Shown here piece after piece: positions 12,400 to 61,208 of a stretch of 64,000 bases of DNA (its first letter is position 1; the number at the start of each line of letters is the position of its first letter). Where the stretch lies: contig JAJEKV010000080.1 of assembly GCA_021234155.1 (NCBI GenBank), positions 4,133,953 through 4,197,952 on the forward strand, given 5' to 3'. Below the pieces are notes generated by a model that did no database searches, had not been told where the DNA came from, and saw only the letters and a program-made list of their open reading frames with translations. A program made the position numbers and the translations under genes. The DNA is from Isoetes taiwanensis (Eukaryota; Streptophyta; Lycopodiopsida; Isoetales; Isoetaceae).

Positions 12400-12432
12400 T
12401 CACCACGAACAAGATTGCGTATTAAACGGGAG
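12400..12432 (+). repeat. Element 1 left inverted terminal repeat
   Basis: Starts TCACCACGAACAAGATTGCG and ends ATTAAACGGGAG. It matches the reverse complement of 20842-20874 with few differences (TCACC, GAACA, GATTGC and ATTAAACGGGAG are shared). The similarity stops outward of TCACC, which marks the likely element edge. Confidence 0.6.
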
Positions 12433-12789
12433 CAAATCATTGAAACGAGAGCAAAAGGAATATTCCGCAAAGATTCCCTTTTTTTTTACGAAAAAGGGGG
12501 TAAAATGAGGTTAAAAAAAAAAAAGATGCATGAAATTCTATTTTGACCCCCCCCCCCGAAATGACTAAATTTTTTTTGCAACGAAGGAATTGGCTTTTTT
12601 AAAGTGTCACTTTTCTTAGCAAAAAGAATGTTCTTAAAGTATGTTTTAAGAGAGAAACTCTAATTTCAGAGGATAAAATATTTAACAAAAAATTGAAGTA
12701 AGTCTGTAATTGAAACTGTAGTATTCTCAAAATTTGAAGATAGAATCTTCATATTCACATCAAAATTTCATCTTTTTCTAAGACTCCGC
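12433..12789. other. Subterminal region with homopolymer runs
   Basis: Between the left terminal repeat and the first coding remains. It contains runs of T, A and C of about 9-12 bases (12479-12557) and a partial second GAAACGAGAGC block. No gene is seen. The homopolymers make base-level errors likely here. Confidence 0.4.
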
Positions 12790-15700
12790 TTATGTGCAAA
12801 AGTGTGAGGAGTGATGAGAGAGGGATCCGGGGCGCCCTCATGTTCATTTATGCCATCGTCATCACCTTCACTTCTTTCATTGTCCACTCGAGGAAGTGCT
12901 TGAGTTATCTTCCTCATCACTATCAACGCATCGGTGAAGCATTGTCACCACCTTCTTCATCATCTTCTTCATAATTACAAGCTTTTTAAGCAAATTGATA
13001 GTCTTCCAAGTAGAGACGATTGTCGATTTCAATTTAAAATCATAGCACAATATAGTCACGCCATTAAGGTTCACTCGTCCCTACAACCCACCTTCTTGAC
13101 TTTCTCCCTTTTCCTTGGCTTCTCATTTCTAACTCATATCTACCTTCAAAAGCATTTTCTCGAGCGTGTTGCAAGCCAATGAATCTTGAGTTTAGTGACT
13201 AAGCCTTCCTCCTTGATCGTGTCAAGCACTTTTGCTATCCGTAAGCGGTCGACCTTTGTCATCCTCCCTCGCCGGAAGAGCAATTAGCATACCTTTGGTA
13301 ATTTTCGTGATATTACCTTGGGGCTCATTCCCAAGCGCCTTGGTCCGAGGTACATGACCGGTCCTCCTCGTCTTCTACTTCAGGTGCAAATGTAGCTTTG
13401 CTTGGACCTCGCTTGGTCTTTGGGGTTGATGGAAGGTGTTAGGCCATTGAAATGGTTCTTGCAACCTGCCTTAGAGCTATGTTTTGTACAACAATTTTCT
13501 GTTCGAGAAAGAAATTACTCCACCACATCCGATCTTCTTCTAAGAAGTACTTAAAGCCTCGAGGAAATTCCATTTTCAATGGCTTTTAAGGATGACTGGG
13601 GTACTTTTCTTCCGCTTGGACTCCTTAGGATTTTTGAGAGGAAGTTGCTCAAAGACGCTCTATGAAGGAAGTGTCCGGAATATATTTAAGGAAGCTGTAA
13701 TCCCTCCTCATGGACTCCAAATCCTTAGTTGTGGTATACTTCTTCCCCTCAGAAGAAGCTTTGGCCATCCTTCAAGTAGAACTTGATATGATGTTGAAAG
13801 GTGAGATCATTCAACTTGTTCACGCCTTTGTTCTCTGTTTGAACGCTGAGAGAAAACAAACTCTCTCGAAATCAGCAGTCTCTTTAAGAAGATCGACCAA
13901 TCGGAGTAGGAGTGTAAGAATCTTCAATAATTGAACTAAAGAAGGAAGGAAGACAAAGCCTTCTTCCTTCTAAGGCGCACAGAAAATCTGCTGAACATTT
14001 GGTCAATCTGATCATGAGTGTGGCCTACAAGTAAGAAACCGAGCTTCACTTTTCTAAAGATCCCTAGCTCCACTAACATGGCACAGTACGCAAAGAGTGT
14101 TTGATTCTTGTTCTCCCTTGTAGTATTGTCAAGTTGCAGATAAAAAAGCACGGTGGTAATTGCTTTTGCTCGCACAGACCTTGTTAAGAATTGTAATTGT
14201 GAGGTTGGGGTCACCATGCAAGTTTGGATACGCCAAAAAAACTTTGCACCTTAGACTTCCTTTGAAGACCATAGCTCCTACAAGGTGGACCTTAACAAAA
14301 CATTCCTCCGCACATCTTTAGGAATGTTCAAGAAATGTGGTAGAGTTGTTGTTTTTTTTTTGGTCCATTCCATCAATCACAAATGCATATGTATTGCAGT
14401 GGACGCTCAAGAGCTTTTTTCTATGCTTGGCAAGCTTTCTTCTCTCTCACGCTTGTTGTTCACTTATGTCCGGCAAGGTTCTCATTTGCACAATATCTCA
14501 GAGAAGAAATCAGGTCAAAGCATTTTCTCTAAAACAAGTGAGAGATTGGAGAACATGAACTTACTTCTTTCGACCTCCTGCCTTTGCGTTTCTCGTTGAC
14601 TCTTTAATTCTCGCACACCTCGAGCAAAACAGACATTCTATGTTTTCTAGGAATTTTCACAAGACCGAATTCACTTTTCCACACACGGTGAAGTGTGAGT
14701 AAGAGATGTCCAAGCCGAGTGCAAGTCTCTTTGTACTCATTAAAAACATCTTTTTGGTGATGTTATCGTTAAATGATACATGTTGTCTGTTAGGTAGCTT
14801 CTCACATGTTTCTCTAAAATATTTCTCCATCCAGACAAAGAAGAAGGGCATGCATGGTTACAACTCTTCTTGGTCCACAATGATCATCGATTGCTGGATT
14901 TTTGTCCAGTCTTTTGTGTATTCTAGACATTCTTGTGGACCCTAAACGGTGGACAACCATAAAACATTTCTGGCAAACTTCTTGACGGTTAATGTAGTGC
15001 AAGAAGGTGTTGCGGTCTGGTCTTACATGATAAGCTAAGTAGGCATTCTCGGTCCGCCAATGTCATGGAATCAGAAGTTGTCTCTAATCGCCGTAATTTA
15101 GCCATGTTAAGTCTGTTGATGCAACCCAATGAGCAAAGATTTAGTTCTCAAAAGTCTCCTCATTTTCTGTTCATCCATAAGATTTCTTCTTCTTGCAGAG
15201 GAGCAAGCCCTCAAACCAAAATCCACCTTGAATTTCTTTGAAGATTGGCTTGAGAACATGTAATCTCTTTGTTCCTCGTTGGTGTCTTCATCTTCTGATG
15301 AAACTTCTACTCTGGGGGTGACTTCCTCTGTCCTGAGTGGTGTGCTTGTAGAGGAAAACAGACCACGTGAAGTTGTTCCCGGAATAGGCGGGGGTACAGT
15401 GTTAAAGGGTGGTGATGGCCCATAAGAGGTTGTGGCATCAGCTGTTCTTGTACCATCTTGAAAAGGAGTTCTTGCAAACATCTCCTTTAGAGCGGACTGG
15501 AATTCTCAGAATCCATGTGTCACAACCCTTGTTGTGTGAAGAGGAGTGCATGCCGGAGCTTGGCCCTCATTTGTAGTGAAGTCTGGTGAGAGAAATTGTA
15601 GTGAATCTCACAGTCTTTCAGGTTTTCTCGTGTTCCTTGTATGTTTGCACGGAAGGAGGCTAAACTACAAAAGGGGGGTAGCTTGTTCTTGAGCACCCTT

Positions 15701-16116
15701 TGTTGTGGAGCTTCGCAGTCCCGGGATGGAGCAAAGGGTGGTGGCAGCCCGCCCCAACTAGTGGTGATTCTTTGGAAGGAGATGCCGCAGGCCGCCTACG
15801 TGACTTGGTGACGGTTGGAAGGGTGGTGGAAGTCTGTTACGTGCTGGACTCGGTGTGTCTTCGAGAAGCAAGAACGATGAAGCAGAGGTAGGAGTCGGAG
15901 AATTCCGGTCTTCAGAAGAAACGACGTTGGTCCCAAGCGTGTCCTCGTAACCGCACGAGCTTGAGACAACGAAAAGGTGGTGGAAGTTTGTTGACGGCGG
16001 TTTGTCATCTTAAGAACCGCAAAACAAGTGTAGAGTTTAGATAATGTTTTCATCGCAGAGCTTTTCTTATTCCGTATCACAAGCCCGCCTACTAAAAGTA
16101 GAACTTCCCGCAACAA
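12790..16116 (-). pseudogene. DUF7869-type transposase-like gene, broken (element 1)
   Basis: Fragments on the minus strand match, in the expected order, plant and invertebrate proteins with the DUF7869 domain. They are an acidic N-terminal part (15481-15107), an N-terminal domain with HYINRQEVCQKCFMVVHRLG (about 15002-14950), then VIDGMDQ (near 14372), LQLDNTTRENKN (near 14130) and VGHTHDQIDQMFS (near 14000). Spaced aspartates of this type fit an RNase-H-fold DDE/D-like catalytic core. That reading is an inference, and the domain has no agreed function. It is broken by several changes. The same gene in better state is found in element 2 at 48303-50611. Confidence 0.65.
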
Positions 16117-16390
16117 TTAAGTTTAAAGGCAAACTAAAAGCTATTCCCGAATACACTAGAGCAGTAACAAGAAGGCCAAACGTATTCCACTTCACATAGA
16201 AAACGAAAGCAAGACGGAATGGACACCTTAAAAGGAAATTTTGGCGCTTTCGGGCCATGTGATTCCAGTCCTCGAGCCGAAGTCGTGCCGCTATTTCTCC
16301 AATATAATATTCGTGAGTCAGATTCGATACTCATAGAGAAAACATGGAGAGGTGAGTAAGAAAGTACAAGGTACAATCATTTGTGTGTCG

Positions 16391-16720
16391 TTTTTATTCC
16401 GAATACATTTTATTTTTCCTCGAAAGTGTATTTCGAATACACATTCGCCTTCCCTAAAAAGTAAAGTGTATTCCGGAATACAATTCGAATACACAGGGAA
16501 GGCTAATGTATTCCGGAATACACTTTCGCTTTCGAGGGAAGGCTAAGTGTATTCCGAATACACTTTCGCTGAGAGAAGGCGTAAAGTGTATTCCGAATAC
16601 ACTTCGCTTTGAGGAAAGGCTTAAAGTGTATTCCGGAATACACTTCGCTTTGAGGGAATGGTAGTATTCCGGAAACACGTTCGCCTTTCCTCAAAGGCTT
16701 AAAGTGTATTCCGAATACAC
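16391..16720. repeat. Tandem palindrome array, GTGTATTCCGGAATACAC type
   Basis: About ten copies of a 16-18 bp palindrome (core TGTATTCCGAATACA or TGTATTCCGGAATACA) at about 16395, 16426, 16466, 16484, 16506, 16547, 16586, 16626, 16661 and 16704. The spacing is roughly 40 bp. The spacers share a TTCGCTTTGAGGGAAGGC motif. The array sits between the divergent DUF7869 and ParB-like genes, where a shared promoter would lie. Confidence 0.9.
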
Positions 16721-16959
16721 TTTCGTGTTCTTTTGTTTTGTAAGTTTGTTTTTCCGTGATTTTTGTAGTGACTTTAGGTGTTTTTTCTGCTTTTAAAACT
16801 TGTTTAGACCTGTTTTTTTGTCAAGATTGCAGTGTTGTTTTGGCATTTTGGTCCTCTTTTTGCCCTTGTTTTTTCCTTTTCGCAAGACATTTTGTATTCT
16901 GGAATAGTTTTTTGCCACTGCTTTCTCTAACAAGATCGTGTTTACACACAATTTGCACA
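16721..16959. other. T-rich upstream region of the ParB-like gene
   Basis: T-rich sequence 3' of the palindrome array. It probably holds the leader or a first intron of the plus-strand gene. No defined exon is visible. Confidence 0.3.
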
Positions 16960-18626
16960 GACAAGAAGGCAGCAAGAAACAACACAAGAGGACCGTTAAA
17001 ATCCCAAACTAAAACCGCACCACAGAGAAGGGTTGAGGAGACATCTGCGCCTGCCATCTACGAAAACTTTCAAACTCAATGGTTTTTTACAAGGGGTACT
17101 TCTGGAAAGTACAGCACACTTACTTTCCTACATGTCTGTCGGAGTGCTGGAGCAAAAAGGTACGATGAGAGGGAATTTGTTTGCATGGGCACCATCCAAA
17201 TTGCGGAGTGAAGTAGCCGGGGAGTCCGCCCGAGGGAGACCGCCTTTTCAGACATCCCAAGGCTTTATTCATGTTGATGAATCCTATTTTAGAGTGGTGA
17301 AAGTAAATCCTCGCCCTCTCAGACAAGTATGTTGCTCACTACATCAAGAAGAGGTCGCCGCTGCCATCATCAACTATGTTCGGCACAACGAGCTTAAGAC
17401 TTCCCTCCCCAAACAGTCCCGAGCCCGAGGAAGAGGATGAGCAACCGAGTGCCCGAAAGCAGTTCCTCATCACAACTGGGAGTCCATCACAACCGCGAAA
17501 GGCCACCGCCACCACCACCAAAGAAGCGCCAAGGGACACAATTGTCGCTAAAGAGCCTAAAAAAGCAGACGGCCTTAATTGCAGAGGATATTTCCGAGGA
17601 ACCTAAGAAGAAGAAGGGGAAGGGTAAAGCACCGGTGTTGCTATAAAGGAAAAAAAAAGTTGACAAGACAAATTGAAAAGATGGAAGAGATTAACCCGCA
17701 CAAGTTTGTGCAAGGTGTAATTTATTTGCCGGGCCACTTCAATGAAGCTTCCAATCAAAAATGAAGTCGGTGAAAGGCCACTTCAGGTTCGCAAAATTTA
17801 TGCCGATCACTTAAGGAACCCGAAGATGTAATAAGGAGCAATCCAAATGCTCATGTGGCCCCAATAGTTGTCCTTGTTGATGTGGAAGAGTGCAAAACCC
17901 CCCAGACTATGACAGAGAAAACGCAGAGACCTACACTCACTACGCCTTGGGAGGCAATCACGCCTTTAAGGCAAGAAGGCAACTTTATAAAGAGAAGAAG
18001 AACCCGAGGTACCTCTCCGCCCCTCCCAAGCGCAAGCGCATCGGGTCTTACCGATGAAGAAGTTTAAAATCGCTGCCAACACCCACAATGCCGATAAACT
18101 AATATAAACTAAAGATGAGCTTCACGACAAGATCCGGGCTCATGCAATGTGGAGTAACGTAATATTCAAGGAAAAGTACGGTGAGGACCAAGAAGCCAAA
18201 GATTTTCCTTGGAGCTTAAGGAGGCGGTGCTATTGAATGTCGCCGAAATATGACGAGGCCAACAAAAGGCGCCTCTCATTGGCCACGCACAAAACCGGTT
18301 CCAGCTTAGCTTTTAGAGATGGCAAGGTAAGCACAAAATGTATTCCGTAATAGCAAATCAACTATTTAACGTGAATCTTCTTGAACAGATTTGGGAACCT
18401 GTGACCGAGATATTTACAATGTTCGAGCGAGGGAGTTAAAGAGCAAGGGAAAGGAGAGACAGCTAAGAAAAAAAAAGCTCGACGCACTCCAAAAAGAAAT
18501 GACCATTACCGCCCTCAAGGGAAATGTGGCTTTCTCCGACACGGAGCTTCTCGAAAGAAATTTTCTCCAAAAAGTTGTTGATAAGGAGTTTAGCCTAGAA
18601 GAAATGTCAAAGGAATTACACAAGTA
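16960..18626 (+). pseudogene. ParB-like domain gene, 5' part (element 1)
   Basis: Plus-strand coding remains in several frames. Around 17763-18065 the order of motifs resembles a ParB/sulfiredoxin-type domain: GERPLQVRKIYADHL, then HVAPIVVLVDVEECK, then YALGGNHAFKARRQLY (the conserved GG-N/Q-H signature) and GLTDEEV. Upstream is a proline/glutamate-rich, basic linker with PEPEEEDEQPSARK. Downstream, a frame at 18391-18627 (LQKEMTITALKGNVAFSDTE) ends at a good splice donor, AAG|GTAAGT (about 18627). ParB-family domains bind DNA and, in bacteria, CTP. Whether this one does is unknown. It is broken by several changes. The same domain order is seen at 54.3-55.4 kb in element 2. Confidence 0.5.
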
Positions 18627-18689
18627 AGTTCTCTCGACACAAACATTAGTTATTGCATGTTAGATTCCCAAAAACATCTAAGGTATATA

Positions 18690-18972
18690 GTAGTGTTCTA
18701 GAATACACATGCCTTTCTTTACACGGGCAATGTGTATTCCGAATACACATTGCTTGTCTCTAGAAAGGCATTAGGTATTCCGGAATACACATTGCCCGTG
18801 GTGAAGGAAGGCATGTGTATTCGAATACACATTGCTCCTCCGAATGTTGGCCTGCGGTATTCGAATACGCATGCCTTTAGAGAAGCAATGTGTTTGTCCC
18901 GTAGTAGAACTATTTTTCTCGCATATTGTTTCGAGGTAGCATCACAAGTTAACCGGTTTGTATTCCGTAATA
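18690..18972. repeat. Intron-borne palindromes, TATTCCGAATA family
   Basis: Within the intron that runs from about 18627 to 19054 are at least six palindromes of the element 1 family: GTGTTCTAGAATACAC (18693-18708), a 27-bp one with extra arms GCAAT/ATTGC (18727-18753), and others near 18775, 18815, 18857 and 18958. The CCGG/CCG/TCGA centres vary while the arms stay complementary. A further copy lies near 18340 in the preceding small intron. Confidence 0.85.
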
Positions 18973-19054
18973 CAATTAGCTTGACTTGTATTTGTTTTTC
19001 TTTTACGTTGCCTTCATTCTTTCGCTTAAACTCATTGTTTCTTTAACGCCTTGC

Positions 19055-20513
19055 AGCCAAAAACGCCATAACATGTCAAACATGTTTGATGGAGCAGCTA
19101 AACGCCGACACATGGGAAAGGTGCAAGGAACTCTACCCAATTGCCACATCCGACGAGCGCATTGTCCAATATTCACCAAATTTTGAGGGTCGGGTAATTA
19201 CACTTAGAATTCCTTCTCTCCAAGACAAACGATCTCTTGACAGCTTGTTGTTTTGTTTTTCTTAGAGCAAAAAGAAAAATAAAGACCTACCCGAGGGCTT
19301 TATGAATTTGGTTAGAACAAAGACGGAAGAGAGGTCGTTAATGAAAAAGAAGAACTGTTGAGCCGTAACCATCCGACTACTAGAGATTCTCGCATGTTTG
19401 ATCAAAACAATTTATATTCAATCATTCATGGTGATTGCAATCTAACCTTGTCGGAACGGTTAAGCCACAGGACTTTACTTTGGTTATTGCTGATCTTCCC
19501 TATGGGTTTAAGCTTAAAGACGCCAGATAATAATTCACCAGCCCTTCAAATTTTCAGAGTTTAATGCTTTTATTGAAGGAATTAAGCAGATCTCAACGGC
19601 CAAACATTGGCGTTTAGTTACGCTCCATTCGAGCATGCAAACCGGCTTGGTGGAATCAGCTTTCAAAAATCACTTTGGTTCTCCGGTTCAGTGTGATATG
19701 AAAACCTTTGTCAGAAAGTCTTATTCCGAATACAATTACTTTTCTCTTTAATTACGAGTGTGTATTCCGAATAGTATTTCCTGCTTCTGGTTTTCAAGTG
19801 TTTTCTTTGTTTTTTGCTAATATCACTTTATATGCTTCACTAGGTACAAAACTAACATCAACTACCATGGTGGAGGACCAAGGTTGCTCAGCAAGGTAGA
19901 GTACCTTCATGTAGCTTATTGGAGTTTTGATGGGAAGAGGACCATGGATCACTTTAACACTGCCTTTGGCCAAAACTTTTCAAACGCCCTAGAGTTTCCA
20001 AAGTAGCCTTACGTAAATTGTAGGACCCAAGTGCACAAGGCAGATTGTGAATCACTACCGTAAACCACAAAGCTCATCAACCATCTCCCCGACATGTTCT
20101 CGCCGCCCGTGAGATTGGGTACTTGATGCTTTCTCCGTTCTCGGGTACTACTATCGCATGTGCACTTAAGAAGGGCCTGAACCGTAGCCGTGGATATTGA
20201 TAAGGAGGTCAGGCATTTTGTGAAGATGAGATGCTGCCTTTTACCTACTTTACCAGATGAAAATCAGGAGTTAGGGGCCAAGTCTTCATCTGATTATGCT
20301 AAACTAACGTCCTCAGAGATACAGCCTCCATTCTCCAGCTCACTAGACGATGAGGCAACCTTTGCAGAGCTTAAAGAAGTAGCTTTAGCTACCATTCCAG
20401 AGAACAAGGAGGATACAAAACTCAAGTCCCCAGTAAAGGAGCAGATAGAACAGAAGGACGAGATGGCAGAGAGCAGCAAAAAGAATGAGGAGGACTATGA
20501 TGTAGATCTTTGA
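19055..20513 (+). pseudogene. Beta-class DNA methyltransferase-like domain (element 1)
   Basis: The 3' part of the plus-strand gene, in two or more exons. Motif IV appears as QDFTLVIADLPYG (19468-19507), preceded by IIHGDCNLTL. Then comes HWRLVTLHSSMQ (near 19610), and last the AdoMet-site remains DAFS / SGTTIACALKKGLN (about 20124-20180) followed by VAVDIDKEV. Motif IV before motif I is the order of beta-class amino-methyltransferases (N6-adenine or N4-cytosine). The Leu in DLPYG replaces the usual second Pro of DPPY. An acidic, lysine-rich tail ends at 20512. Introns near 19190-19265 and 19720-19842 interrupt it, and the latter carries palindromes. The domain is broken by several changes and is probably inactive here. 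Confidence 0.55.
19720..19775. repeat. Two palindromes in a methyltransferase intron
   Basis: TATTCCGAATACA (about 19722) and GTGTATTCCGAATAG (about 19759) lie in the intron that ends CTTCACTAG at about 19842. They belong to the element 1 palindrome family. Confidence 0.75.
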
Positions 20514-20822
20514 CTATTGCATATTAAAATTATCATTATTTATTACAATGAATCTTCAATATTGATGTACAACAATTTATTAAAAACATAGTACTTTTTT
20601 TTCCTTTCTATTCTGGTGCTTGTTTTTTGTAATGCTTTCAGTCTCTTCAAGTCTATGCCTAAATTTTGCTATTTTTATGATTTGTGTTTCATAAGTACAA
20701 AGTTTTCGTCTAATAATGGGCCAAAATGGCATGAAAAAAAAATGCAAACCTCTAGAAATTCTTAACAACTATCAAAAAAGGCTTATTTTAGAAACTTGGT
20801 GTTTTTTTAAAGGGAATCTTTG
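20514..20822. other. 3' flank of the methyltransferase-like gene
   Basis: AT-rich sequence with TATTAAAATTATC and similar stretches, likely the 3' untranslated region and right subterminal DNA of element 1. No gene is seen. Confidence 0.3.
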
Positions 20823-20850
20823 AAACGGGAGTGATGCAACACTCCCGTTT
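20823..20850. repeat. Terminal hairpin of element 1
   Basis: AAACGGGAGTG and its complement CACTCCCGTTT are separated by six bases (ATGCAA). It overlaps the inner edge of the right terminal repeat. A hairpin of like form, AAAGTGGG/CCCACTTT, lies near the right side of element 2 (60949-60976). Confidence 0.8.
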
Positions 20851-20874
20851 AATTTGCAATCGTGTTCACGGTGA
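20842..20874 (-). repeat. Element 1 right inverted terminal repeat
   Basis: Reads TCACCGTGAACACGATTGC on the minus strand and continues into ATTAAACGGGAG. It is the partner of 12400-12432. Confidence 0.6.
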
Positions 20875-35060: not shown

Positions 35061-35068
35061 TGTAATTT

Positions 35069-40784: not shown

Positions 40785-40788
40785 GAAG

Positions 40789-43900: not shown

Positions 43901-44098
43901 ATCTCAAGGATGTTTGGAAGGAACGAGCTGACATAATGGAGTTGTTTGTTAATATGGAAATACTTGAAGCTACAGGTGCCCTTGTTTAAGCGCCTTGTGG
44001 ACTATATATTTCTTGTACTATCTTCGCCATATGGACCCGAGGGTCTTAAATGGCGTGATTAATATATTATTATCATAAATGAGCCAATTGAGCTAGTT

Positions 44099-47460: not shown

Positions 47461-47814
47461 TCATCACTACCTTTTTCTTAAAGTATAGTCATCATTTTCT
47501 TGTCTTCTTTTTTTTTTTTTTTTTTTTCCAAATTTACACTTGCCTTACCATTTTCTTATGTATAGTCACCTTTGTTTATTTTCCGTGCACAGCTAACACT
47601 GAGAAGAATGGGATGAAACAAACGAGGAGCAAGCTGATCGGCATGAATAAAAGTGGTGCAGGCAAAAGGCATCACAGACGAGATCAGTCAGCTGTAGATG
47701 TAGGTCAAACATGTCAATAAAATGTAAGCAATATGTCTATAAATTATTACAAATGTTTTTTACTTTGTTTATCAATCCCTTGACAATTCCTAAGGCCTCG
47801 AAGGGGCCGAAAAT
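47461..47814. other. Short non-coding interval
   Basis: Includes a T run (about 47510-47528). A 101-codon ORF spans it, but half is low-complexity and it is not supported as a gene. It ends at the left copy of the element 2 flanking repeat. Confidence 0.3.
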
Positions 47815-48160
47815 TTTTTCAGTCAACACAACCAATAAAACCCCCTAAAAACTTCCTTTCACACAGGGGTGGCTCCAGATAGCAATTCAAAGGCCATTAA
47901 TGATTTTTTGGAGGCCCCGAAGGGGCGAATTTTTTTTTAGGTATAACACAAACCATTACATTCCACACTTAAAAATTAAATTCCCCCTTAAACTCCCTTT
48001 GGGTGAATATTCACACATGGGGTGACGTAGGGCAACAAGAGCTGTTGGATAGGTGTATATGCCCTTTATTCCTCAATCTACACCGTAGATAGTGATCCCT
48101 GTTTGTGGGGTATGCCGTTTGTGGGTTTGTGAAGTTGAGGCATCTGGAAGCAGGGGTGAA
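47815..48160 (+). repeat. Flanking direct repeat B, left copy
   Basis: A sequence of about 345 bp starting TCAGTCAACACAACCAATAA and ending GCATCTGGAAGCAGGG. It recurs in the same orientation at 61209-61516 with small deletions. It contains GGAGGCCCCGAAGGGGCGAA, a short near-palindrome, and no coding frame. The two copies bracket the DUF7869 / ParB-like element. Confidence 0.85.
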
Positions 48161-48302
48161 AATGGGACTCACACTATAGAAAAAAAATTTCTGAATTGAT
48201 TGCTTGAATAGAATTACACATCACACACAAAGAATTGGGTAACTTGTTTTCCTCATAAATTTTATAAACTACTAGTTGAGAAAGTTTTCAAGCTTCTCAA
48301 TA

Positions 48303-50611: not shown

Positions 50612-50870
50612 TTAAACCACTAAAACCATTTAAACCACATAGAACCATTAAAAACATTACAACCATATAACCATTAAAAGGATTAAAACTATATAACCAT
50701 TAAAAACATTAAAACACTATAACCATATAACCATGTAACCATTATAACCATTAACCATTAGAACCATTAACCATTAAAAACATTATAACTATTAACCATT
50801 AACCATTAAAACCATTAACCTTAACCATTAAGAATTAAAACCATTGTAACCATATAACCATTAAAAACAT
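50570..50870. repeat. AACCATTAAA minisatellite
   Basis: About 300 bp of degenerate tandem AACCATTAA / AACCATATAACCATTAAAA units, immediately upstream of the DUF7869 start. Unit length drifts between 9 and 18 bases. It is absent from element 1. Confidence 0.9.
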
Positions 50871-51240
50871 GGCCCACGTGGCGCCTCGTCAGCAACTGCT
50901 GACATTGCCACGTCAACAATCCGGACACCCAGGTCACGGACCGCATGGCCCACACGTGACAGGGTGTCATAATGGCACTTTATCGAGGTTCGAGGGTGCA
51001 GCCTGAAATAACTGCACCCTCTTCCTCTTCCCCCGTGACCCATTCATCCATTCATTCTTTCTCTGTTCTGTTTTTCCATTCCATCTCTGGAGCTCCGCCC
51101 TTGGCGATCCTTCCAATCACTCAATTCCGACGTCTTCTTATGACAGCAGCCTGGTCGACGGATCGGGACGCATCTAGCGCCGAGGTTTTTGCGCAGTTTG
51201 AGTGTTCGTGCGGGCGTTACTGCCTAAGAAGAAAGTGAGG
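50871..51240 (+). promoter_or_regulatory. Divergent promoter and possible first exon
   Basis: GC-richer than its surroundings, with GCCCACGTGGCGCC (a CACGTG G-box core at 50874-50879) and CCACACGTGACAG (50950-50962). Downstream, ATGACAGCAGCCTGGTCGAC (51138 on) opens a 33-codon frame ending in YCLRRK next to GTAAGT-like signals at 51249. This would suit a short first exon of the plus-strand gene, whose recognisable exons start near 54.1 kb. The link is inferred. Confidence 0.35.
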
Positions 51241-51880
51241 TTCTTCTCTGTAAGTTTATAGCTTTTTTTATTGCTTCTTTTTAGTTTTTACGTAAGTCCT
51301 TTCTTGCACTCTTACTTATATTCTTTTTATCGGAGGTTCTTACTATCCCCTATTTCAATTTCGGCTGACAAATCCCTATTCTCGCTTTGCAAGCTTTGTT
51401 CAAACATGGAATCAAACCGCGGGGAGCTTCCTCGCATCCCATAAAATCTACCGGTATATTTTTTAATATGTTCTTTTTGTCTCCATTTGTTTCCTCTATT
51501 TCACATCTTTTCACTGTTTTCTGTTTTGCTTTTGTTTTGTTTTCTGTTTTTGTTTTCTTCTTCTTAGTTTTTGTTTAATTGAATACCTTGTACAGGCATA
51601 AGTAAGACTAGTGCTAAGACTAGTGGCAAGCAACCGAACTAGGAATCCTCAGAGACAGGTGATAGGAAGAAAAAAACTATAGAGCAGTAACAGAACATTA
51701 CTATGAATGATTCACAACAGAAATTGCAAAACTTTCTATGAATGTTTTATAACAGAACATAACTATGAATGAATGTTTCTAACTATGATCTAAGAACAGG
51801 ATTTGCTTTACAGCAAATGCAAATCTTTCTAACTCACAGAATATCCTCCCTTGCAGGAAAGGTGCAGACTACACCCGGCT
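51241..51880. other. T-rich probable intron
   Basis: T-rich sequence following the possible first exon, with TTTGTTTTGTTTTCTG stretches. No gene is supported. Confidence 0.3.
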
Positions 51881-52875
51881 TTCTCGACTCGCGAGTCGAG
51901 AATGCCTCAGCTTGCCAACAATCCAGGAAGTACAAGCCTTCTTCTCGACTCGCGAGTCGAGAATTTCTCGACTCGCGAGGCGAGAACAGGGAGTGTACAC
52001 CCTGGACTGTTGGCTGGTTGAGGCAATCTCGAATCGCGAGTCGAGAATGCAGACAGCTACCCAACATCTTTCTAGTCCTCGAAAGCCAGCCAATGCCTTT
52101 GTGCATTCTCGACTCGCGAGTCGAGAATGTCATACACAGCCAATGGCTCTGTGTCCGGTCGCAGGTGCCTCCACCCAGTCCGAGCCACTCTCCTTCGAAC
52201 CATCTTCGTCGAATATTGCGAAGGGGACTGGCTCCGACTGGGTGGAGGCCTCTACGACTAACCACAGACGTGCTGGCTGTCTTCTCGACTCGCTAGTCTC
52301 ACACAGCATTCCCGGCTCCAGTGCATTCTTCTGTGTCTTGTCCCAGGCGCCTGCAAACAGTCTTAGCCACTCTCCTTCAAACTATCTTCCTCGAGTATTG
52401 CGAAGGGAAGTGGCCCTGATTGTCTGCAGGCCTCTGGGTCTAACCACAGGGGGTTTTCTCGACATGTTTTCTCGTGCATTCTCGACTCGCAAGTCGAGAA
52501 TCCCTTAACCGACCAATTCTTACGTAATGCGGTGCGTAGGTTCCTCGACCCAGTCAGAGCCACTCTCCTTCAAACCATCTTCCTCGAATATTGCGAAGGG
52601 GAGGGGCTCGGACTGGGTGGAGGCCTCTGCAACTAACCACAGGGAAATGCATCCTTAAGGCCTCAGCCACCCAACAAGTTTATTCTCTACTGAAGACTTG
52701 ATAATGCCATAGGTTGGCTTGCTGTCTGCATTCTTGACTCGCGAGTCGAGAATGCCTTAACAACCGGCACTCGGGGAGTACTACACTGAGTTTTTGGCTG
52801 GCTAAGGCATTCGACTTCAGCGAGTCGAAGAATGCACGACAACTTTCTTGGGATTCTCGACTCGCAAGTCGAGAA
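51881..52875. repeat. Palindrome cluster, CTCGACTCGCGAGTCGAG family
   Basis: Ten copies of a roughly 22-bp palindrome (TT + CTCGACTCGCGAGTCGAG + AA and variants) at 51881, 51942, 51965, 52027, 52106, 52282 (degenerate), 52479, 52731, 52809 (degenerate) and 52854. Variants include GCAAGTC and GCGAGGC right arms. Long frames that read through this cluster (51912-52508 plus, 51834-52265 minus) are by-products of the repeat and not genes. Confidence 0.95.
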
Positions 52876-53039
52876 TCCCTTAGCCAACCAATTCTCCTGT
52901 GCCAATTCTCCTACCCACAGGAAATCCATCCCTTTTGTCGAGGTTTAGTCCTAGGTGCCTCTAGCCTGTCTGAGCCACTCTCCTTCGAACCATCTTCCTC
53001 GAATATTGCGAAGGGGAGTGGCCCGGACTGGGTGGAGGC
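52167..53039. repeat. Four 83-bp foldback repeats
   Basis: Units at 52167-52249, 52349-52431, 52543-52624 and 52957-53039. Each has inverted arms of about 32 bp (GCCTCCACCCAGTCCGAGCC and its complement GGCTCCGACTGGGTGGAGGC in the first copy) around a loop of about 20 bp holding TCGAATATTGCGAA. Each is followed by TCTGCGACTAACCACAGG or a close variant. The second copy has different outer arm bases (GCCTGCAAACAGTC) matched by changes in the other arm. Confidence 0.9.
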
Positions 53040-53202
53040 CTCTGCGACTAACCACAGGGGGATGCATTTGAACTGCATCCCTAAGGCCCTAGACCTAGCA
53101 TGATCTATACACAACTAGCATGCCTAACAGATACTCAGACCGGATGGATCCCTTTGCTTCTAAACAGAATGGAAGGCATTCCAAGCAAAAATACAGACAG
53201 AT

Positions 53203-53478
53203 GAAACTGTTCGCGAGTTGCTCCGATTTATAGTTCCCTTGCTGAGCATCTCTCAACCTAGAGAGTATCTCGACGCTGAAATATGCTCAACAAGGAAACC
53301 ATAAATCGGGCGAGCTGTCGAACAGTTCCATGATCAAAACAGGGAGCTGTTCGCGTGTTACTCCGATCCATTATTTTCGTGCCCAGCATCTCTCAACACA
53401 GAAAGTATATTTCATCTCTCGACGCTGAAATATGCTGGACAAGGAAACAATAAATCCGCCGAGCTTTCGAGCAGTTCC
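53203..53478. repeat. Two tandem 130-bp hairpins
   Basis: 53203-53330 and 53344-53478 each fold on themselves with arms of about 45 bp. For the first, AACTGTTCGCGAGTTGCTCC … CTTGCTGAGCAT pairs with ATGCTCAACAAGG … GAGCTGTCGAACAGTT. The loops hold CTCTCAACCTAGAGAG and TCTCGACGCTGAA. The copies are about 75-80 percent alike, and both keep arm pairing. Confidence 0.85.
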
Positions 53479-54123
53479 ATGTTCTATACACATCTGGCAT
53501 ATTCTACACACATAATGAAACATGAATATCTGAAACTCACCTCTTCTCGCAAGAACTCCTTGGGCCATTGTATCACAGATCCCGCAGCCTCACCAAGAGT
53601 CTTCGCTTATTCCGTTGGCCTCATCAATAATGCATCCCCATCAAATACTTGTATCAAAGCGATTCTCGCGTATCCCTCTTCCATGGCGCTGCAGTGAAGT
53701 GTTCCCGTGTCTTGGAGCTCATATCCGCTTGCTACCTTAGCCCCGTGCACATCGATCAAATCAACTATTTGCAAAAAGACATGCAGTTAGAACTAGACAG
53801 AGAGTACATCGCTGTTAGGAGCTTACAGCGTCGTGGTGCCATCCGTGAACAGTCGATCTCCGCCTCCAGTTGCTGTGCGCCCCAAAGTCGCCAATGCCGC
53901 ACTAAAACTAAGCACCCGAAAATCTCCACTGCGCTCACCAAGTCCCTGGAAATGAATGAATTTCGAATTGGTGTTTGGGCGTGTTAAAGTTGGCCGTGCT
54001 GTACCCTTAGCCCGTTTTTTTGCCTTGAATGATTGTGTGTCCTTAATTTCAAATTTAAGAACACGCCCGACCTTTTTTACGTGCAGTCCTAAAACCTCTA
54101 AGGCACGGAAGAGGCTCAATTTA
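53479..54123. other. Probable 5' region of the ParB-like gene
   Basis: Several overlapping short frames with no family match. It may include one or more small exons or an intron upstream of the basic exon at about 54124. I cannot choose among them. Confidence 0.3.
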
Positions 54124-57100
54124 CAAGGGAGTTCGAGCAGCAAGAGGATGCGGGGGCATACAGATATGACGACTCCATCGAGGAAGCGAGGCACCGGAGT
54201 GGATGCTGGTTCTAGCGGGACCAAGAAAAGAAAGACAGGGACTCTAAGTGAGCTCTTGTGTTCGGTGAGGATACCTTCTCTGATCCATCCTTCTGTCTTG
54301 CAGCATTCACTGCGGAGACGCTAGTGATCACTGGCAGAACTCCGTTCTTCGTTATTGAGGGATTGGAAACAGAGCTACTTGATACACCAGCAGATTCTTG
54401 GTGGTATGTCGAAGTATCAACAAGTGGGAAGGAGAAAGATCTGTTTCTGTGGCAAAGGGATAAGAAGAGCTCCAGCGACAAGTACAAGAAGGTCGGTGTT
54501 GTGCTCTCCGTCTCTGCGCCAGATTCGAAGCATCTAACATTGTATGTGGAAGACTGCATGAAGGGTAAGTTCTACCACACGAAGAAGTTATCAGTATCCA
54601 ATTACTCTCACTCTTTAATGAGCAAGTCGAAGGGGACCGACAAAAGGCCGGCGCCTTTAAATTGTCAGAACCTTGGGTGGAAAGATCTGGAAGGGATGAA
54701 GGAGGCTGGAACCCTGACATCCAGGGAGCTTGGAATGGAGATTTCCAGGGTGAGGGCGAAGCTGTTCAACACCGGGAGCTTTATGTCCAGCGTGCTAAAG
54801 ACTCTAAAGCACTCGGCAGTTACCAAGGATATTGTAGTTCAGAAAGAAAAAACTCCGGACAGGAATGCAGATGCAGCAGATGAGAGTACACGGGAGGATT
54901 CAGATGCTGAAGAAGAGGAAGATATAGTCGATTCCCAATTCTTGGATCCAGATGAGCAGATTAGGAAATCACAGAGAGGGGCCCAGAAGATGGAGCGGCT
55001 GGCTCAGTATTACCCATTAGGGATATCACACAAGCTGCTGCTGGACATCAGACGCCTGAAGGTTTGCACTGGAGATGCCGTCTTGTTCAACCACAGGGAA
55101 TTTAATCCAGCACACATGCTGGAGATTCTGAACTTGATGGTGCGACATCCTGTTGCAGACCCAATGCCTGCGGATGTCATACCATTCAGCAGATCGACCG
55201 GTGAGTTGTTCAGTTGGAAGTCTGAGGAAGATCTGAAGGGAAAAGACGTCAGGTTTTGGGTTGTGGACGGCCAGCATTCAGTGAGGGTAGCACAAGTATT
55301 GCAGACAGAAAAGGAAGTGACGCAAAGGATCAAGGACAGATATTCCAAACGAGAGTGCAGAGTTCTTTCAGCGGACATGCCACCGACAGAGCTCGCCAGC
55401 ATTAGCTACTGTCAGAACACAATAGCAGCAAGTGCCAGCTACATAAGGTAAATTACTGTCTCTGATTCAGGGCTTTCTCGACTCGCGAGTTGAGAAAGCC
55501 CCCGCATCCTCCGATTTCCCGAGTTCGACTGGGGTTGCCCTTTCTTGGTGTTCTCTTCTTCTTCTCGTCTTCATCCTCTCCCTCATCATCTTCCTGGCCT
55601 TCCAGAAGAACATATCTGCAGAGTTTCTTGAAGGTCTTCCACTTATCCGAGGGAGCCCTGTTTCCTTTAGGATGCTGAGGACAACCCAATGCTTTCCACT
55701 GTTGCCGAGCGTGTATGATCTGGTCAGGACACGGGCTGCATTCAGTAAACGTCACAATGTCAGAGCATGAAAGTATCTCCTAACACCCGAAGGAACCAAT
55801 AAATAGGAGGATGCAGGGGTTTCTCGACTCGCGAGGCGAGAATACCCACATGAGACGAGAAAACATAGGAGAGTCAAGGCCAGAGCAAAAGCATCGCGCA
55901 TTCCCAAATCTTTGCTTTCACGCCTCTTCGAACGATGCAACTTAGGATATAAACTAAGCGACATTGCCCGAAGAGGCGGGAAAAGAAAGATTGGGAAGGC
56001 TCGATGCTTTCACTCTTCAACCATTAATCTCTAATGTTCTCTCTATTACCCTGGAGTTTCTCGACTCGCGAGTCGGGAAAGTCAGAGGAGCACAGGAGAG
56101 GAGAAGATTGAAGGGACTTTCTCGACTCGCGAGTTGAGAATACCCACAGGAGAGGAGAGAACATAGAAGGAGAGTGAAGGCCAGAGTGAAAGCACCGCTC
56201 ATTCCCAAATCCTTGCTTGCCCCGCCTCTTCGAACGATGCAACCTAGGATATAAACTAAGAGACATTGCCCGAAGAGGCGAGGGAAGAAAGGATGGGAAG
56301 GCTCAATGCTTTCACTCGTCAACCATTAATCTCTAATGTTCTCTCTATTGCCCTGGGGTATCCCGTTTTGTCTCTGTCTTTCTCGACTCACGAAGAGAAA
56401 GTCCTTCAACTTTACTTTCTTTACTGTTCCGGGCTGAACAGAAAGCCCCCGTGATCCCTCGATTCATTTCCTCCTGGCTTTTCGGGTTGGAATGAGAAAG
56501 CCCCGCGATCCTCATTTCCGAAATTTCGATCGGGAGTTCGGGGTTACCAATAACTCCGAAATCTGAGGATGCTGGAACCGAAGTCTCGGATCGCCACAAA
56601 TCCTCTGAAACGATATGGCTTTCGACTCGACCGCGAGTCGAAAAAAGCAGGAACAGGAAACAGGCGCGGGCTTTCATCTCGCCAGTCGAGAAACCCCAGA
56701 GAAGTAAAGAAAAGTAAAGATTGAAGGGACTTTCTCGACTCGTGAGTCGAGAAAGCCAGAGACAAAACGGGATACCCCAGGGCAATAGAGAGAACATTAG
56801 AGATTAATGGTTGACGAAAGTGAGAGCATTGAGCCTTCCCATCCTTTCTTCCCTCGCCTCTTGAACAATGTCGCTTTAGTTTATATCCTAGGTTGCATCG
56901 TCAAGAGGCGGGGCAAGTAAGGATTTGGGAATGAGGTGCTTTCACCGCCTTCACTCTCCTTCTATGTTCTCTCCTCTCCTGGTATTCTCGACTCATGAAG
57001 TCGAGAAAGTCCTTCAATCTTCTCCTCTCCACGTTCTCCACGACTTTCCGACTCGCGAAGTCGAGAAACTCGGTGGTAATAGAGAGAACATTAGAGATTA

Positions 57101-58680
57101 ATGGTTGAAGGTGAAAGCATCGAGCCTTCCCAATCTTTCTTTTCCCCGGCAATGTCGCTTAGTTTATATCCTAAGTTGCATCGTTTGAAGAGGCGTGGAA
57201 AGCAAGGATTTGGGAATGCGGCGATGCTTCGCCTCTGGCCTTGACTCTCCTATGTTTTCCTCTCGGTGGTATTCTCGACTCAAGGAGTCGAAACCCCCTG
57301 CATCCTCCTATTTATTGGTTCCTTCGGTGTTAGGAGATACTTTCATGCTCGACATTGTGATCGCGTTATCGGTCGCAGCCGCGGTCTGACCAGATCATAC
57401 CACTCGGCTGCAAAGTGGAAAGCATTGGGTTGTCCTCGGCCCTAAAGGAAACAGGGGCTCCCTCGGATAAGTGGAAGACCTTCGAGAAACTCGGCAGATA
57501 TGTTCTTTCCGGAAGGCCGTGAAGATGATGAGAGAGAGGATGAAGACGAAGAAGAAGAGAACACCAAGAAAGGGCGGGGAATCTCGGACCAATATGACCT
57601 CATTCTTAGCACTGAGGCGATCCTGGGAGAATGGACTGAGATATGGGCTCAATGGACAAGAGGCAAGCTGAAGGACAGCAATGGAGAATTGTCAACCAGG
57701 ATGGACCCAAAGTTGTTCGACAAGCAATTCATGAAAAGGATACAGGGCCTGGCGGACAAGGAACCTGGGGGGTGCACTTATACATAAGGGGGGTATGGCA
57801 TCTGCGTTCGGAGGGTAGCAAAAAACACCCCATTGTATACGCAATTTTAAAAGGCAATTTGACCCCTTTGTGTATAGATTGCTCCAAATCAGTGCCTAAA
57901 AACACCCCTAACCCCTACGTATACGTGCGCAAATGGTCCAAAAAACACCCCTCCGTGGAACTCTCATGGGTTATACGCTGATCAAAGGTGAATCCCCCGG
58001 GACAAGGAAACGCTTGATCTACAGGGTAGAATCCTGGATGGAACAATCCTGCTAAGGAAAAGTAGAAGTTCAAAATTGCAGGACGCAAAGGATTACGCCA
58101 CAATCCTAAAGAGACGGCGTGCATTGGAAGAAGGCATCACAGAGTTTTGCAATGTTGCCTCCAATGCATGCCATGATTTTGATTATTATAAGGAGAAGGC
58201 TGCGCTTGATGAGGAAGACATGCAGGAGTTGAACCGTCTATGTCAACCCTACATCAACACCAAGCTAAAGCGTAACGTCAAAACCCTCCCCTTCCCTGAA
58301 CGTGCTATGGCAATTCTAAAGAGGAAGCTTGGATTCGGGGTGGTCCCATTTAAGACGGATGATAGCTCCCCTCCATTCCTGGTAACCTTGGGACACAAGG
58401 GGTTTGGTGGTCTGGAACTGGCATCTGGGCCCGTGGCACTATTTGCCATGAATATGATCGAAGACCCCACCCTATTTTATGAAAAACCTGACATTGAGCA
58501 GTGGTACAAGACGTGTCTGGACATGACCGAGCTGGATACTTTCAGTTTCCTTATCTTTTGCATGGACGATGATGACGAAGACAAACCTGACAGCCAGGGA
58601 GAGAAAGATGACGGAGACGAGAATGTCCAAGGTTTAGACGAGGATGCTGCCGAACAAATTCTGGAGAGTCTGAGATTGAG
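54124..58680 (+). CDS. ParB-like domain protein, multi-exon (element 2)
   Basis: Exon 1 (about 54124-54260) is basic (GTKKRKTGTLSELLCS) and looks like a nuclear signal. Exon 2 (about 54303-55447) ends at ATAAG|GTAAAT. Exon 3 runs from 57379 (after CGCAG) to about 57780. Exon 4 (58082-58680) lies between TTGCAG and GAG|GTGAGT. Exon 2 holds the ParB-like part: AVLFNHREFNPAHMLEILNL, FWVVDGQHSVRVAQVL (55255-55305) and then LSADMPPTELASISYCQNTI. The DG-Q-H box followed by an acidic-lead helix and an N matches ParB/sulfiredoxin-fold proteins, and the same order is seen in element 1. Exons 3 and 4 are of unknown fold, with an acidic tail (MDDDDEDKPDSQGEKDDGDE). Palindromes lie in the introns. Exon 3's frame has small breaks. 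Confidence 0.6.
55474..57620. repeat. 2.1-kb inverted duplication inside an intron
   Basis: About 55490-56540 is repeated in reverse orientation at about 56545-57610, with the centre near 56545. Each arm holds the start of exon 3 (GGAAAGCATTGGGTTGTCCT on the right, its complement on the left) plus upstream intron DNA with a shared block TTAATCTCTAATGTTCTCTC present twice per arm. Eleven CTCGACTCGCGAGTCGAG-type palindromes lie inside it (55474, 55821, 56057, 56118, 56379, 56620, 56672, 56731, 56985, 57045 and 57272), several degenerate. Only the right arm is in the sense orientation for splicing. Confidence 0.85.
57788..58081. other. Probable intron between exons 3 and 4
   Basis: Non-coding. 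It contains three AAAAACACCCC phrases (57820, 57898, 57938) with ATACG-type spacers, and ends in TTCAAAATTGCAG, a good acceptor for exon 4. Confidence 0.45.
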
Positions 58681-58696
58681 GTGAGTTCACTTTGCT

Positions 58697-58778
58697 CTCG
58701 GAGTGTTTCTCGACTCGCGAGTCGAGAAACCCTCCGAGTCTTTAACTTTTTCTTTTCTCGACTCGTGAGTCGAGAAAA
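58697..58778. repeat. Two perfect intron palindromes
   Basis: In the intron starting at 58681. The first, 58697-58738, is a 42-bp palindrome with a single mismatched pair: CTCGGAGTGTTT arm, CTCGACTCGCGAGTCGAG core, AAACCCTCCGAG arm. The second, 58753-58778, has the core CTCGACTCGTGAGTCGAG with TTTT/AAAA arms. Confidence 0.95.
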
Positions 58779-58859
58779 CGCTTTCCTATCGACGTCTTTC
58801 ATCATTCCGGGGACATCGATGCGAACGATCGGGATCATTGACAATCTCACACTGCGAAT

Positions 58860-59668
58860 CTTTGGCGGTTCATCACGAGGAGGATCTTGGATCCAAGAAA
58901 AAAGGCCAAGAGCAAGACAAAAGCGGGCAAAGAAGAAAGGACTCGAAAAATAATGATCCCGCATATGGATCCCGATCAATCAGAAATCTGGTCAGAGCCA
59001 AACTCTAACTGGGATCCAGCGGGTCCCATCAAGCTTATAATATTTGACGTCAATGGAGTATTAGCTGCAGTATACCACGATAAAGACGTCCCTGAGCTTA
59101 ACACCTCACAGATCCCGACAAAAACAGGGTCTAAAATCGTGTATCCTCGACCTAAAGCAAAGGAGATTATTGAGTGGTGCGTGGAACGGGGATTCCAAGT
59201 GGCCATATGGTCTTGTATGGCAAAGAAAAATATTATCAATGTCCTTGGTGTTCTCGGCCTTCCAGTTTTGATGTTCAAGTTTGTTTAAGGAAACGAAAGG
59301 GTCAAGCATGTGTCAGACCTCGATCCAGCCATTACAAAGAGGAAGCCTATTATGGTGAAAAGGCTGGACAGGGTTTATGAAGCATACCAGGACTTAACAA
59401 ACACAACACGCTGATCATAGACGACTCCGCCTACAAGTGCTATCATAACTCGCACAATATAATCATTGCCAAGAGTTATCGACCAGAAGAGTATGAAACG
59501 GATAGGTGGTTGTCTTTCAATCTCGTTCCTGTCTTGGCGGAATCCCTGTTTGCCATACTTGTGGCCGATGTGATTAGGAACTATCCGAACCTCAAGGAGG
59601 TCGATCCAGAGAGCAACACGATCATGAAAGTTATGGACGACAAATATTTTGGTGATCAAGAAGAGTGA
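58860..59668 (+). pseudogene. FCP1/NIF-like HAD phosphatase domain (element 2)
   Basis: A lysine-rich lead (DPRKKAKSKTKAGKEERTRK) is followed by a HAD-superfamily domain of the plant FCP1/small CTD phosphatase-like type: LIIFDVNGVLA (59033-59062), VYPRPKAKEIIEWCVERGFQ, VAIWSCMAKKNI, KPIMVKRLDRVYEAY and NTLIIDDSAYKCYHN (59404-59448), ending at 59668. Motif I is DVNGVL instead of DLDGTL/DxDxT. The nucleophile Asp is kept, but the second acidic position is Asn, which may weaken or abolish phosphatase action. The motif III pair DD is kept. Within this copy there is about one stop and one frame change. It follows exon 4 of the ParB-like gene by one palindrome-bearing intron and may be its 3' part. 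Confidence 0.65.
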
Positions 59669-60183
59669 CCTCTGCTTTCAGATAGTCGAATTGTGTGAAT
59701 TTTGTAAAGAAATGTGAAGAAATGTACTATAGTTTGTAATGAATATACTTGTACGTTGAGTTTTCGCTGGCTTTCTTGACTCGGGAGTCGAGAAAGGCAT
59801 ACTTGTCCTATTGATGAAACCATTTGTATGTTTGTTTGTGTGACTGGATGCAGCCATATTCAGTAATGATAATGGTTGTACATTGGGTTTCCTGGGCCTT
59901 TCTCGACTCGAGAGTCGAGAAAGGCAATCGCTATCTCGTTGATCAAAACCATTTGTATGCTTCCGTGTGTGATTGGATGCAACCATATTCTAATGAGAAT
60001 GGTTGTACTTTGACTTTTCCGGGCCTTTCTCGACTCGCGAGTCGAGAAAGGCACTACTTGCCACGTGATTGGATGCAGTTATATGGAATGAATGTTCTCC
60101 ATTGTATTTTGAATTCACCATTCTTTTCTTCGTTTTGACTAATGATACCATAATTGTTAATCATAGACTTTCCTTGCTCCAGG
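59669..60183. repeat. 3' region with three long palindromes and a loose repeat
   Basis: Three palindromes with GCCTTT/AAAGGC arms lie at about 59770-59797, 59896-59925 and 60023-60052. The last is perfect over 30 bp. They sit in three loosely repeated segments sharing TTTGTATG…GTGTGA.TGGATGCA and GTACATTG-like phrases about 125 bp apart. Probably 3' untranslated or intron DNA. Confidence 0.85.
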
Positions 60184-60547
60184 TGGTTCAGGCACGGATC
60201 CCGCAAGAAGCCACAGATCCCTGATTCGGGCATCACGAGACCAGCTCCGGTGGCATAGATCCCGCTCAAAGGCGGCGAGAGATACCGTTTCGGCACGTAT
60301 CCCGCCACGCTACACTCTTACCGGCCTTTGGGATAAGGTTGCTCGTGAATCTGAGGCGCCATGCACACGCTTCGGGATAAAGAAGGGGAAGAAATTTGAG
60401 ACAGTCCGAAAGCTCAAAGCATCATGCAAGCATTGCATAACATCCACGGAGGTTGGGGAAGGAGCATATTCGATGAAAAGCTGCGGGAGGAGAGTGGAGA
60501 AGTCGGGTGGGACAGGTGTTGGGGTGGCTCGAGGCACCTCCTCGTGA
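60184..60547 (+). CDS. Exon-like frame with a Cys pair, unknown
   Basis: After a good acceptor (CTTTCCTTGCTCCAG) a frame of about 120 codons stays open to a TGA at 60545-60547. It is basic and serine/arginine-rich, with TLTGLWDKVARESEAPCTRF, then KKFETVRKLKASCKHCITST. The Cys-x2-Cys pair could be part of a BED-like zinc finger, but the histidine half is not evident. It is in the element 2 plus-strand direction and may be its last exon. There is no family match. Confidence 0.35.
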
Positions 60548-60948
60548 GGCATTCCACACTTTTCGAGGTTGCCCCAAGGCTTACAAACGGCATGAAGAAG
60601 CCCGCAAGTTAATCCCCTAAGGTGGACCACCTACCACGATGATGTAACTGTAGTGACAGCAAGACCGCCATGGTCTCTGCGACCGATGTAAAATACATTG
60701 TACCTATTCAATTTATTAATAAAAATTCTTTTTCAACTAGAACTTTGGTTTAATTCTTTTTCAACTAGAACTTTGGTTTCAATCTTTAATGAATTTCCTT
60801 TGTTTGAGTTGTATTGTTCTTGTTCTCGACTCGCTATCCGAGAAAACTGGGAGAAAGCTCGAACCCACACTAAGAGACAAATATTCGAATTATGGACAGT
60901 TTTCGAGTCGGAGCTCTCCTTTTTGTGTAAAATAACAGGGTTCCGAAA
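60548..60948. repeat. 3' flank with 28-bp tandem duplication and a last palindrome
   Basis: ATTCTTTTTCAACTAGAACT plus TTGGTTT occurs twice in tandem (60725-60752 and 60753-60780). A degenerate palindrome of the element 2 family lies at 60823-60845. No gene is seen. Confidence 0.75.
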
Positions 60949-60976
60949 AAAGTGGGAATGGAATGAGACCCACTTT
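60949..60976. repeat. Hairpin near the right end of element 2
   Basis: AAAGTGGG and CCCACTTT with a 12-bp loop, followed by AATTAAATATG. It resembles the terminal hairpin of element 1 (AAACGGGAGTG / CACTCCCGTTT followed by AATTTGC). Confidence 0.6.
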
Positions 60977-60989
60977 AATTAAATATGAC

Positions 60990-61208
60990 TTCTACATCAT
61001 CGGGACAGAAGCAAAAGAACTAAAGCATTTCCATAAAGCCGGATCAATAAAGTCTTGCGAGAGAGAAGGTTCATCAGGGAAATGCGAAGAATGGGTTCGA
61101 TTGGACCAGGAGAAGAATTGATCACGCAGAAGGACACGACCCATTGCATCTTTGTATATATTTTGGTTCAATTTCTAATTTTCATAACCGTTAGATGGTG
61201 AAAAGTTT
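60990..61208 (+). repeat. Direct repeat A, copy 1
   Basis: About 215 bp starting CTACATCATCGGGACAGAAG. It recurs at 61564-61780 with roughly 90 percent identity. The two copies bracket repeat B. Confidence 0.85.

Follow-up and report, generated by a model that had tools for sequence, protein, structure and literature searches.

The window analysed here (64,000 nucleotides of contig JAJEKV010000080.1 of the lycophyte Isoetes taiwanensis, positions 4,133,953 to 4,197,952) carries two large elements, A and B, which we suggest are modular cut-and-paste transposons whose ParB-like protein binds palindromes of its own family and places an enzyme on the element's own promoter, a reading to which we assign a probability of about two in three. 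The order is the same in both elements, as a preliminary description had pointed out: a gene of the DUF7869 family on the minus strand, then a divergent gap rich in palindromes, and then, on the plus strand, a multi-exon gene that includes a ParB-like domain. The third module differs, being an N6/N4 DNA methyltransferase (PF01555) in A, recognized through its sister copy L012, and an FCP1/NIF-like HAD phosphatase (PF03031) in B. That the shared order is unlikely by chance is borne out by the confinement of the palindromes to A and B within the 64 kb, by the absence of matches in shuffled sequence, and by the recurrence of the order in further copies found across the genome. It is strongly supported that A, B, two more families named C and D, and their decayed copies are cut-and-paste DNA transposons of one modular class.

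The boundaries of element A were set by its termini and target-site duplication (TSD) at 12408-20866 (8459 bp), which refines the proposed interval of 12.4-20.9 kb, and a 33-nt inverted repeat (85%) encloses 12400-20874. When the whole element was used as query, the best 20 of 4473 candidates yielded 88 matching pieces, the window itself included, and contained four near-full-length copies (91-92%). Similarity among the copies ends at AACAA(A/G)(A/G)TTGCGTATTAAACGGGAG on the left and at ...CTCCCGTTTAATTTGCAATCGTGTT on the right. Eleven sister copies were tried, and all 10 with both ends readable have a perfect 4-bp TSD (CCAA, TATC, GCAA, TGCA, CCAC, TATT, ATGC, GTGG, AGGT, and TTCA), which makes 11/11 with the CACG of the window; in the unreadable copy, L011, the left end was unmatched by the pattern.

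Element C was found by reading 18.5 kb around the best DUF7869 match (loci L039 and L040). It is 9466 bp long, ends in AACAACGT.../...ACGTTGTT, and is flanked by the TSD CTAC; it has palindromes, a minus-strand gene in which DUF7869 is spread over two long open frames, and a plus-strand ParB-like and methyltransferase gene with at least one in-frame stop. About 3 kb from it, at 12475-16253 on the plus strand of the joined L039 and L040 sequence, lies a B-like DUF7869 element, for which neither a ParB gene nor a repeated palindrome was seen in the stretch read. Family D is represented by L054 and L056 with CGGTATAAATTTATACCG repeats. Twelve loci were drawn at random, and three, hand-picked from eight of these, were read. 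The enzyme of the second gene is an N6/N4 DNA methyltransferase in A, C, and D and an FCP1/NIF-like HAD in B.

For element B, the proposed interval of 48.2-61.2 kb had to be revised: the left edge stood at about 48158, where homology to the sister copies begins and the terminus proper is lost, whereas the right end lies at 60991 and not at 61208. A simple unit bounded by the direct repeats 47809-48155 and 61200-61516 (85%) was rejected because the sister copies stop at 60985-60997 and three of them start about 50 bp outside the left edge of B. The left ends of three other copies read AAGTCGCATTTAATTAAAGTGGGTC or near-identical sequence. The right-terminal 361 bp of B recurs in the best 40 of 2320 candidates, window included, and ...GACCCACTTTAATTAAATACGACTT or a close variant forms the right end in the 10 B-family copies inspected. 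Elements A and C have terminal inverted repeats (TIRs) at both ends and 4-bp TSDs; for B, the left and right inverted repeats were seen in different copies. A DNA search with B gave 52 pieces (best 8 of 7095 candidates), and its DUF7869 and ParB parts are both covered in three of these eight copies (C963, C1058, and C834). Two pairs of direct repeats flank B (47809-48155/61200-61516, 85%; 60992-61209/61567-61784, 91%); its right end directly adjoins the family of the second pair, and a repeat of the first pair stands in place of its left terminus. A long imperfect inverted duplication lies 3' of the ParB exon of B (window 55565-57549), parts of which align flipped in three sister copies, and an A-rich minisatellite (window 50572-50870) lies at the 5' end of the DUF7869 open frame.

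The preliminary description had proposed DUF7869 as the transposase from its spaced aspartates. The structure model has an RNase H fold and a BAH domain, and the elements have the other properties of RNase H-fold (DDE/D) cut-and-paste transposons, namely TIRs, a TSD of fixed length (A and C), and a core with a predicted acidic triad. The assignment of DUF7869 with its BAH-like domain as a transposase with an RNase H fold is strongly supported by this modeling; the protein would be catalytic, and Asp336, Asp417, and Asp459 of protein P0007 are the likely catalytic residues predicted. The comparison covered mainly residues 268-492 of P0007, plus two BAH rows. PF25273 (DUF7869) matches in B with an E value of 2.6e-28, and in the frame-broken gene of A the motif GFLLVGHTHDQIDQMFSRFS was found at about 14 kb, the motifs being those of the more open gene in L001/L039. 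The best named protein matches were from the liverwort Riccia and then the fern Adiantum, followed at lower rank by corals, molluscs, amphioxus, and acorn worm. DUF7869 was named in no paper found by our literature search.

The modules were then located in the 1.658-Gb assembly, where the scored first-look candidates were the best 150 of 9902, 110 of 4193, 104 of 5421, 150 of 2564, 150 of 4387, and 40 of 2320. The loci listed comprised at least 110 C-type ParB, 104 B-type ParB, 150 methyltransferase, 150 HAD, and 150 DUF7869 loci, after removal of secondary pieces (5 of 109 for B-type ParB and 1 of 41 for the B right end); all pair counts refer to these listed loci and are lower bounds, and the controls displaced the loci by 0.1-1.5 Mb along the contig, ignoring contig ends. 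A methyltransferase was present within 10 kb of at least 50 of the 110 C-type ParB loci, downstream and on the same strand in all 50 (shifted control, 0.16). At least 29 pairs within 10 kb were formed between B-type ParB and HAD loci, again with the enzyme downstream on the same strand in 29/29 (control, 0.3). No listed methyltransferase was within 20 kb of a listed B-type ParB, and no listed HAD was within 15 kb of a listed C-type ParB. The enzyme follows the ParB type, with no mixed pair among the matches listed, which upholds the earlier proposal of a modular element class with exchangeable enzymes. The B right end gave at least 16 pairs with HAD, all in order, and 15 pairs with ParB within 30 kb, 15/15 in order by strand. 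DUF7869 formed at least 15 pairs with ParB within 20 kb (14 divergent; control, 0.5), at least 23 with methyltransferase within 15 kb (21 divergent; control, 0.54), and at least two with HAD within 15 kb; at least 27 of the 150 DUF7869 loci had a listed partner, and no listed B-type ParB was within 20 kb of any of the 150.

Each of the four families has a palindrome of its own, 14-22 bp long, in the promoter gap shared by the two genes; in A, B, and C it also occurs in the introns of the second gene. Element A has 17 sites of GTATTCC(G)GAATAC (two motifs, up to two mismatches), all in 16141-19774 and about 40 bp apart; B has 19 sites of TTCTCGACTCGCGAGTCGAGAA at up to three mismatches (16 at up to one), all in 51881-60844; and C has nine sites of GGTATGAATTCATACC at up to two. 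At the same mismatch limits, the two motifs of A and the motif of B had no sites elsewhere in the 64-kb window, and this confinement rules out that the palindromes are a general feature of the window. Three mononucleotide shuffles gave no match for one of the two A motifs (up to one mismatch) or for the B motif (up to four). None of the 19 B sites lies in the six coding open reading frames of the second gene. Three B copies whose ParB is 63-69% identical to that of the window have six perfect copies of the 22-bp motif within 2.7 kb, and in one palindrome of a B copy the center is altered on both sides with the symmetry preserved.

The ParB-like model has the ParB N-domain fold of the ParB/Srx superfamily, as far as modeling can tell. 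Among the enzymes, PF01555 scored 66 bits (E = 6.3e-18) in L012 and 56.4 bits in L039 (element C) against a cut-off of 26.7, and PF03031 scored 37.5 bits (E = 2.5e-9) against 21.8 in B over nearly its whole length when the two exons were joined, the single exons scoring below the cut-off. Bacterial ParB binds palindromic sites (parS) on its own replicon. By analogy, we suggest that the palindromes of each family are bound by its ParB-like protein together with the helical part that follows, which is the most likely role of these sites, and that binding would place the enzyme at the element's own shared promoter. The methyltransferase of A, C, and D would mark this promoter locally by methylation, and the phosphatase of B would tune RNA polymerase II there by dephosphorylation, either for self-regulation or for escape from host silencing. 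A wider version, which we hold only tentatively, is a eukaryotic ParB-parS-like self-recognition, in which ParB would load at private palindromes, spread, and deliver a swappable effector (a DNA methyltransferase or a polymerase-II-tail phosphatase), so that the element would be told from host DNA and rival families; if so, each ParB would be expected to evolve jointly with its matching palindrome.

Several observations weigh against the proposed role of the ParB-like protein and the palindromes. The ParB-like model is modest (pLDDT 66.8); no Pfam ParB model matched these proteins, a Pfam scan giving only DUF6551 below the cut-off (E = 0.014-0.025); a protein search with the ParB exon of B gave one fragment; and in a single hhalign comparison of the B and C ParB, which aligned DGQH on GGTH, the E value was 7.8e-4 with a probability of 25 and low Neff. 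Neither the transposase model nor the ParB-like model had a Foldseek match at E ≤ 0.001, and the fold claims are therefore based on its consistent ranking. Motif I of HAD phosphatases is expected to be DxD, but the window copy of B (58979-59285) has DVNGVL, where Asn replaces the second Asp, and may be a catalytically weak phosphatase judging by this motif. Exon bounds in A were drawn by hand, and one of the 16 sites tested there, which did not include site 16894, lies at an exon edge. The intron around the B palindromes already has 79-88% identity among copies, and the further conservation of the palindromes is therefore modest evidence, supportive but not decisive. Many A copies keep at least three exact palindromes of one core, but several have fewer; in L055, a ParB gene and DUF7869 are present without a repeated palindrome in the 5 kb read, and L056 has palindromes without DUF7869 within 5 kb. 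The trend between ParB and palindrome comes from three families, which could show it through common descent alone.

It could also be argued that the palindromes are sites of the DUF7869 transposase, for autoregulation or transpososome assembly, and that the ParB-like protein is a passenger targeting elsewhere. Many transposases and helpers bind internal repeated motifs, such as the CACTA subterminal repeats, and the A and C DUF7869 proteins share the same core motif. However, in the elements read the palindromes lie in the promoter gap and the ParB-gene introns and not at the termini, and the B-like DUF7869 element of L040, a single case that may be truncated, has no repeated palindrome where no ParB gene was seen; we consider this explanation unlikely. 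Slightly less likely still is that host transcription factors use the palindromes as cis-regulatory sites, or that these are small foldback repeats nested in the elements, and that the accessory enzymes were captured and do nothing for mobility. Transposons often capture genes, and the large inverted duplications in the B introns indicate that foldback sequence does accumulate, but the palindromes are family specific, recurrent in many copies, and spaced about 40 bp apart in A, and in each listed ParB-enzyme pair the enzyme lies downstream on the same strand (50/50 and 29/29). The ParB-methyltransferase build also occurs in two Chara proteins and has been reported from brown, green, and red algal transposons (PMC12477816), which speaks against this reading.

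Membership in the Sola1 superfamily, with its known ParB-methyltransferase accessory gene, has a little less than an even chance; it is compatible with binding of the palindromes by the ParB-like protein and would leave little new beyond host and copy number. The 4-bp TSD and the large size fit Sola elements (PMC10741241), and Sola has been reported from the moss Physcomitrella. Sola1-1_Ec32 of Ectocarpus is likewise a large DNA transposon in which a ParB-like and N4/N6 DNA methyltransferase gene and the transposase are encoded on opposite strands, but it measures 21.5 kb compared with 8.5-13 kb and several families here, its transposase is a putative counterpart of DUF7869, and the available parts of the account mention neither a HAD module nor palindrome arrays (PMC12477816).

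Table 1. Features of elements A and B in the window
Feature	Position	Strand	Remarks
A, left TSD copy CACG	12404..12407		End comparison with sister copies
A, left TIR AACAAGATTGCGTATTAAACGGGAG, 25 bp	12408..12432	+	Similarity among copies lost beyond this point
A, DUF7869 gene (predicted transposase), degraded	12880..15505	-	Several frames; catalytic-core motif at ~14.0 kb
A, divergent gap with GTGTATTCCGGAATACAC-like palindrome array	16141..16727
A, ParB-like and beta-order N6/N4 DNA methyltransferase gene	16977..20512	+	Multi-exon, degraded; compared with L012, where longer gene pieces survive
A, more same-family palindromes in second gene	18334..18982, others 19721-19783		Mostly intronic
A, right TIR	20842..20866	-
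A, right TSD copy CACG	20867..20870
B, extent	48158..60991		Right terminus intact; ~50 bp of left terminus including inverted repeat gone
B, DUF7869 gene (predicted transposase)	48306..50611	-	PF25273 exon 48306-48980; upstream exon 49421-50611
B, divergent gap, 8 palindromes TTCTCGACTCGCGAGTCGAGAA	51881..52875
B, ParB-like exon (WVVDGQHSVRVAQVL)	54252..55448	+
B, 5 palindromes 3' of ParB-like exon	55475..56753		Likewise 3' of same exon in 3 sister copies
B, 230-aa open frame between ParB and HAD	57992..58681	+	No Pfam family above cut-off
B, two non-coding palindromes	58707..58776
B, FCP1/NIF-like HAD phosphatase exons	58979..59665	+	Motif I, DVNGVL
B, four more palindromes	59773..60844
B, right TIR (AAGTC...TTTAATTAAAGTGGGTC)	60967..60991	-

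The rest of the window holds what we take to be minus-strand fragments of a copia-like reverse transcriptase and integrase (6197-8901), minus-strand Helitron/Pif1-like helicase fragments (34363-36591), and a plus-strand long interspersed nuclear element with gag-like, endonuclease, and reverse-transcriptase frames (39957-43874), as well as, presumably, a 929-aa open pentatricopeptide-repeat (PPR) frame (1748-4537) and a minus-strand gene for a CDK-like protein kinase whose N-terminus is long and of low complexity (30862-32945). With the PPR protein, the CDK-like kinase, and the retroelements, the window has the gene content of a land plant, probably a non-flowering one.

Compared with the bacterial ParB-parS systems (ParB, Noc, KorB, and PadC), the ParB-like domain here belongs to a eukaryotic transposon and is followed by a methyltransferase or a HAD phosphatase. 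The methyltransferase has the beta order of prokaryotic N6_N4_Mtase proteins (PF01555), with motif IV (ADLPYGF/ADIPYGF) ahead of motif I (DAFSGSGTT), but is encoded in a plant transposon, where it follows a ParB-like domain. Unlike other FCP1/SCP phosphatases (NIF, PF03031), the enzyme of B occupies the methyltransferase place behind the ParB-like domain and has Asn for the second Asp. Palindrome arrays of this kind were not found in a literature search of mostly open-access papers, nor was the HAD variant behind ParB in a narrow one of the same scope. A function can be proposed for the DUF7869 family, and the elements suggest that, in a plant genome, effectors have been swapped behind one presumed DNA-targeting domain. 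It has been guessed in print that the ParB-methyltransferases of transposons bind the element that encodes them and mark it, and candidate sites for four families make this guess testable. The most interesting part is the palindrome-rich gap, a candidate family-specific address system.

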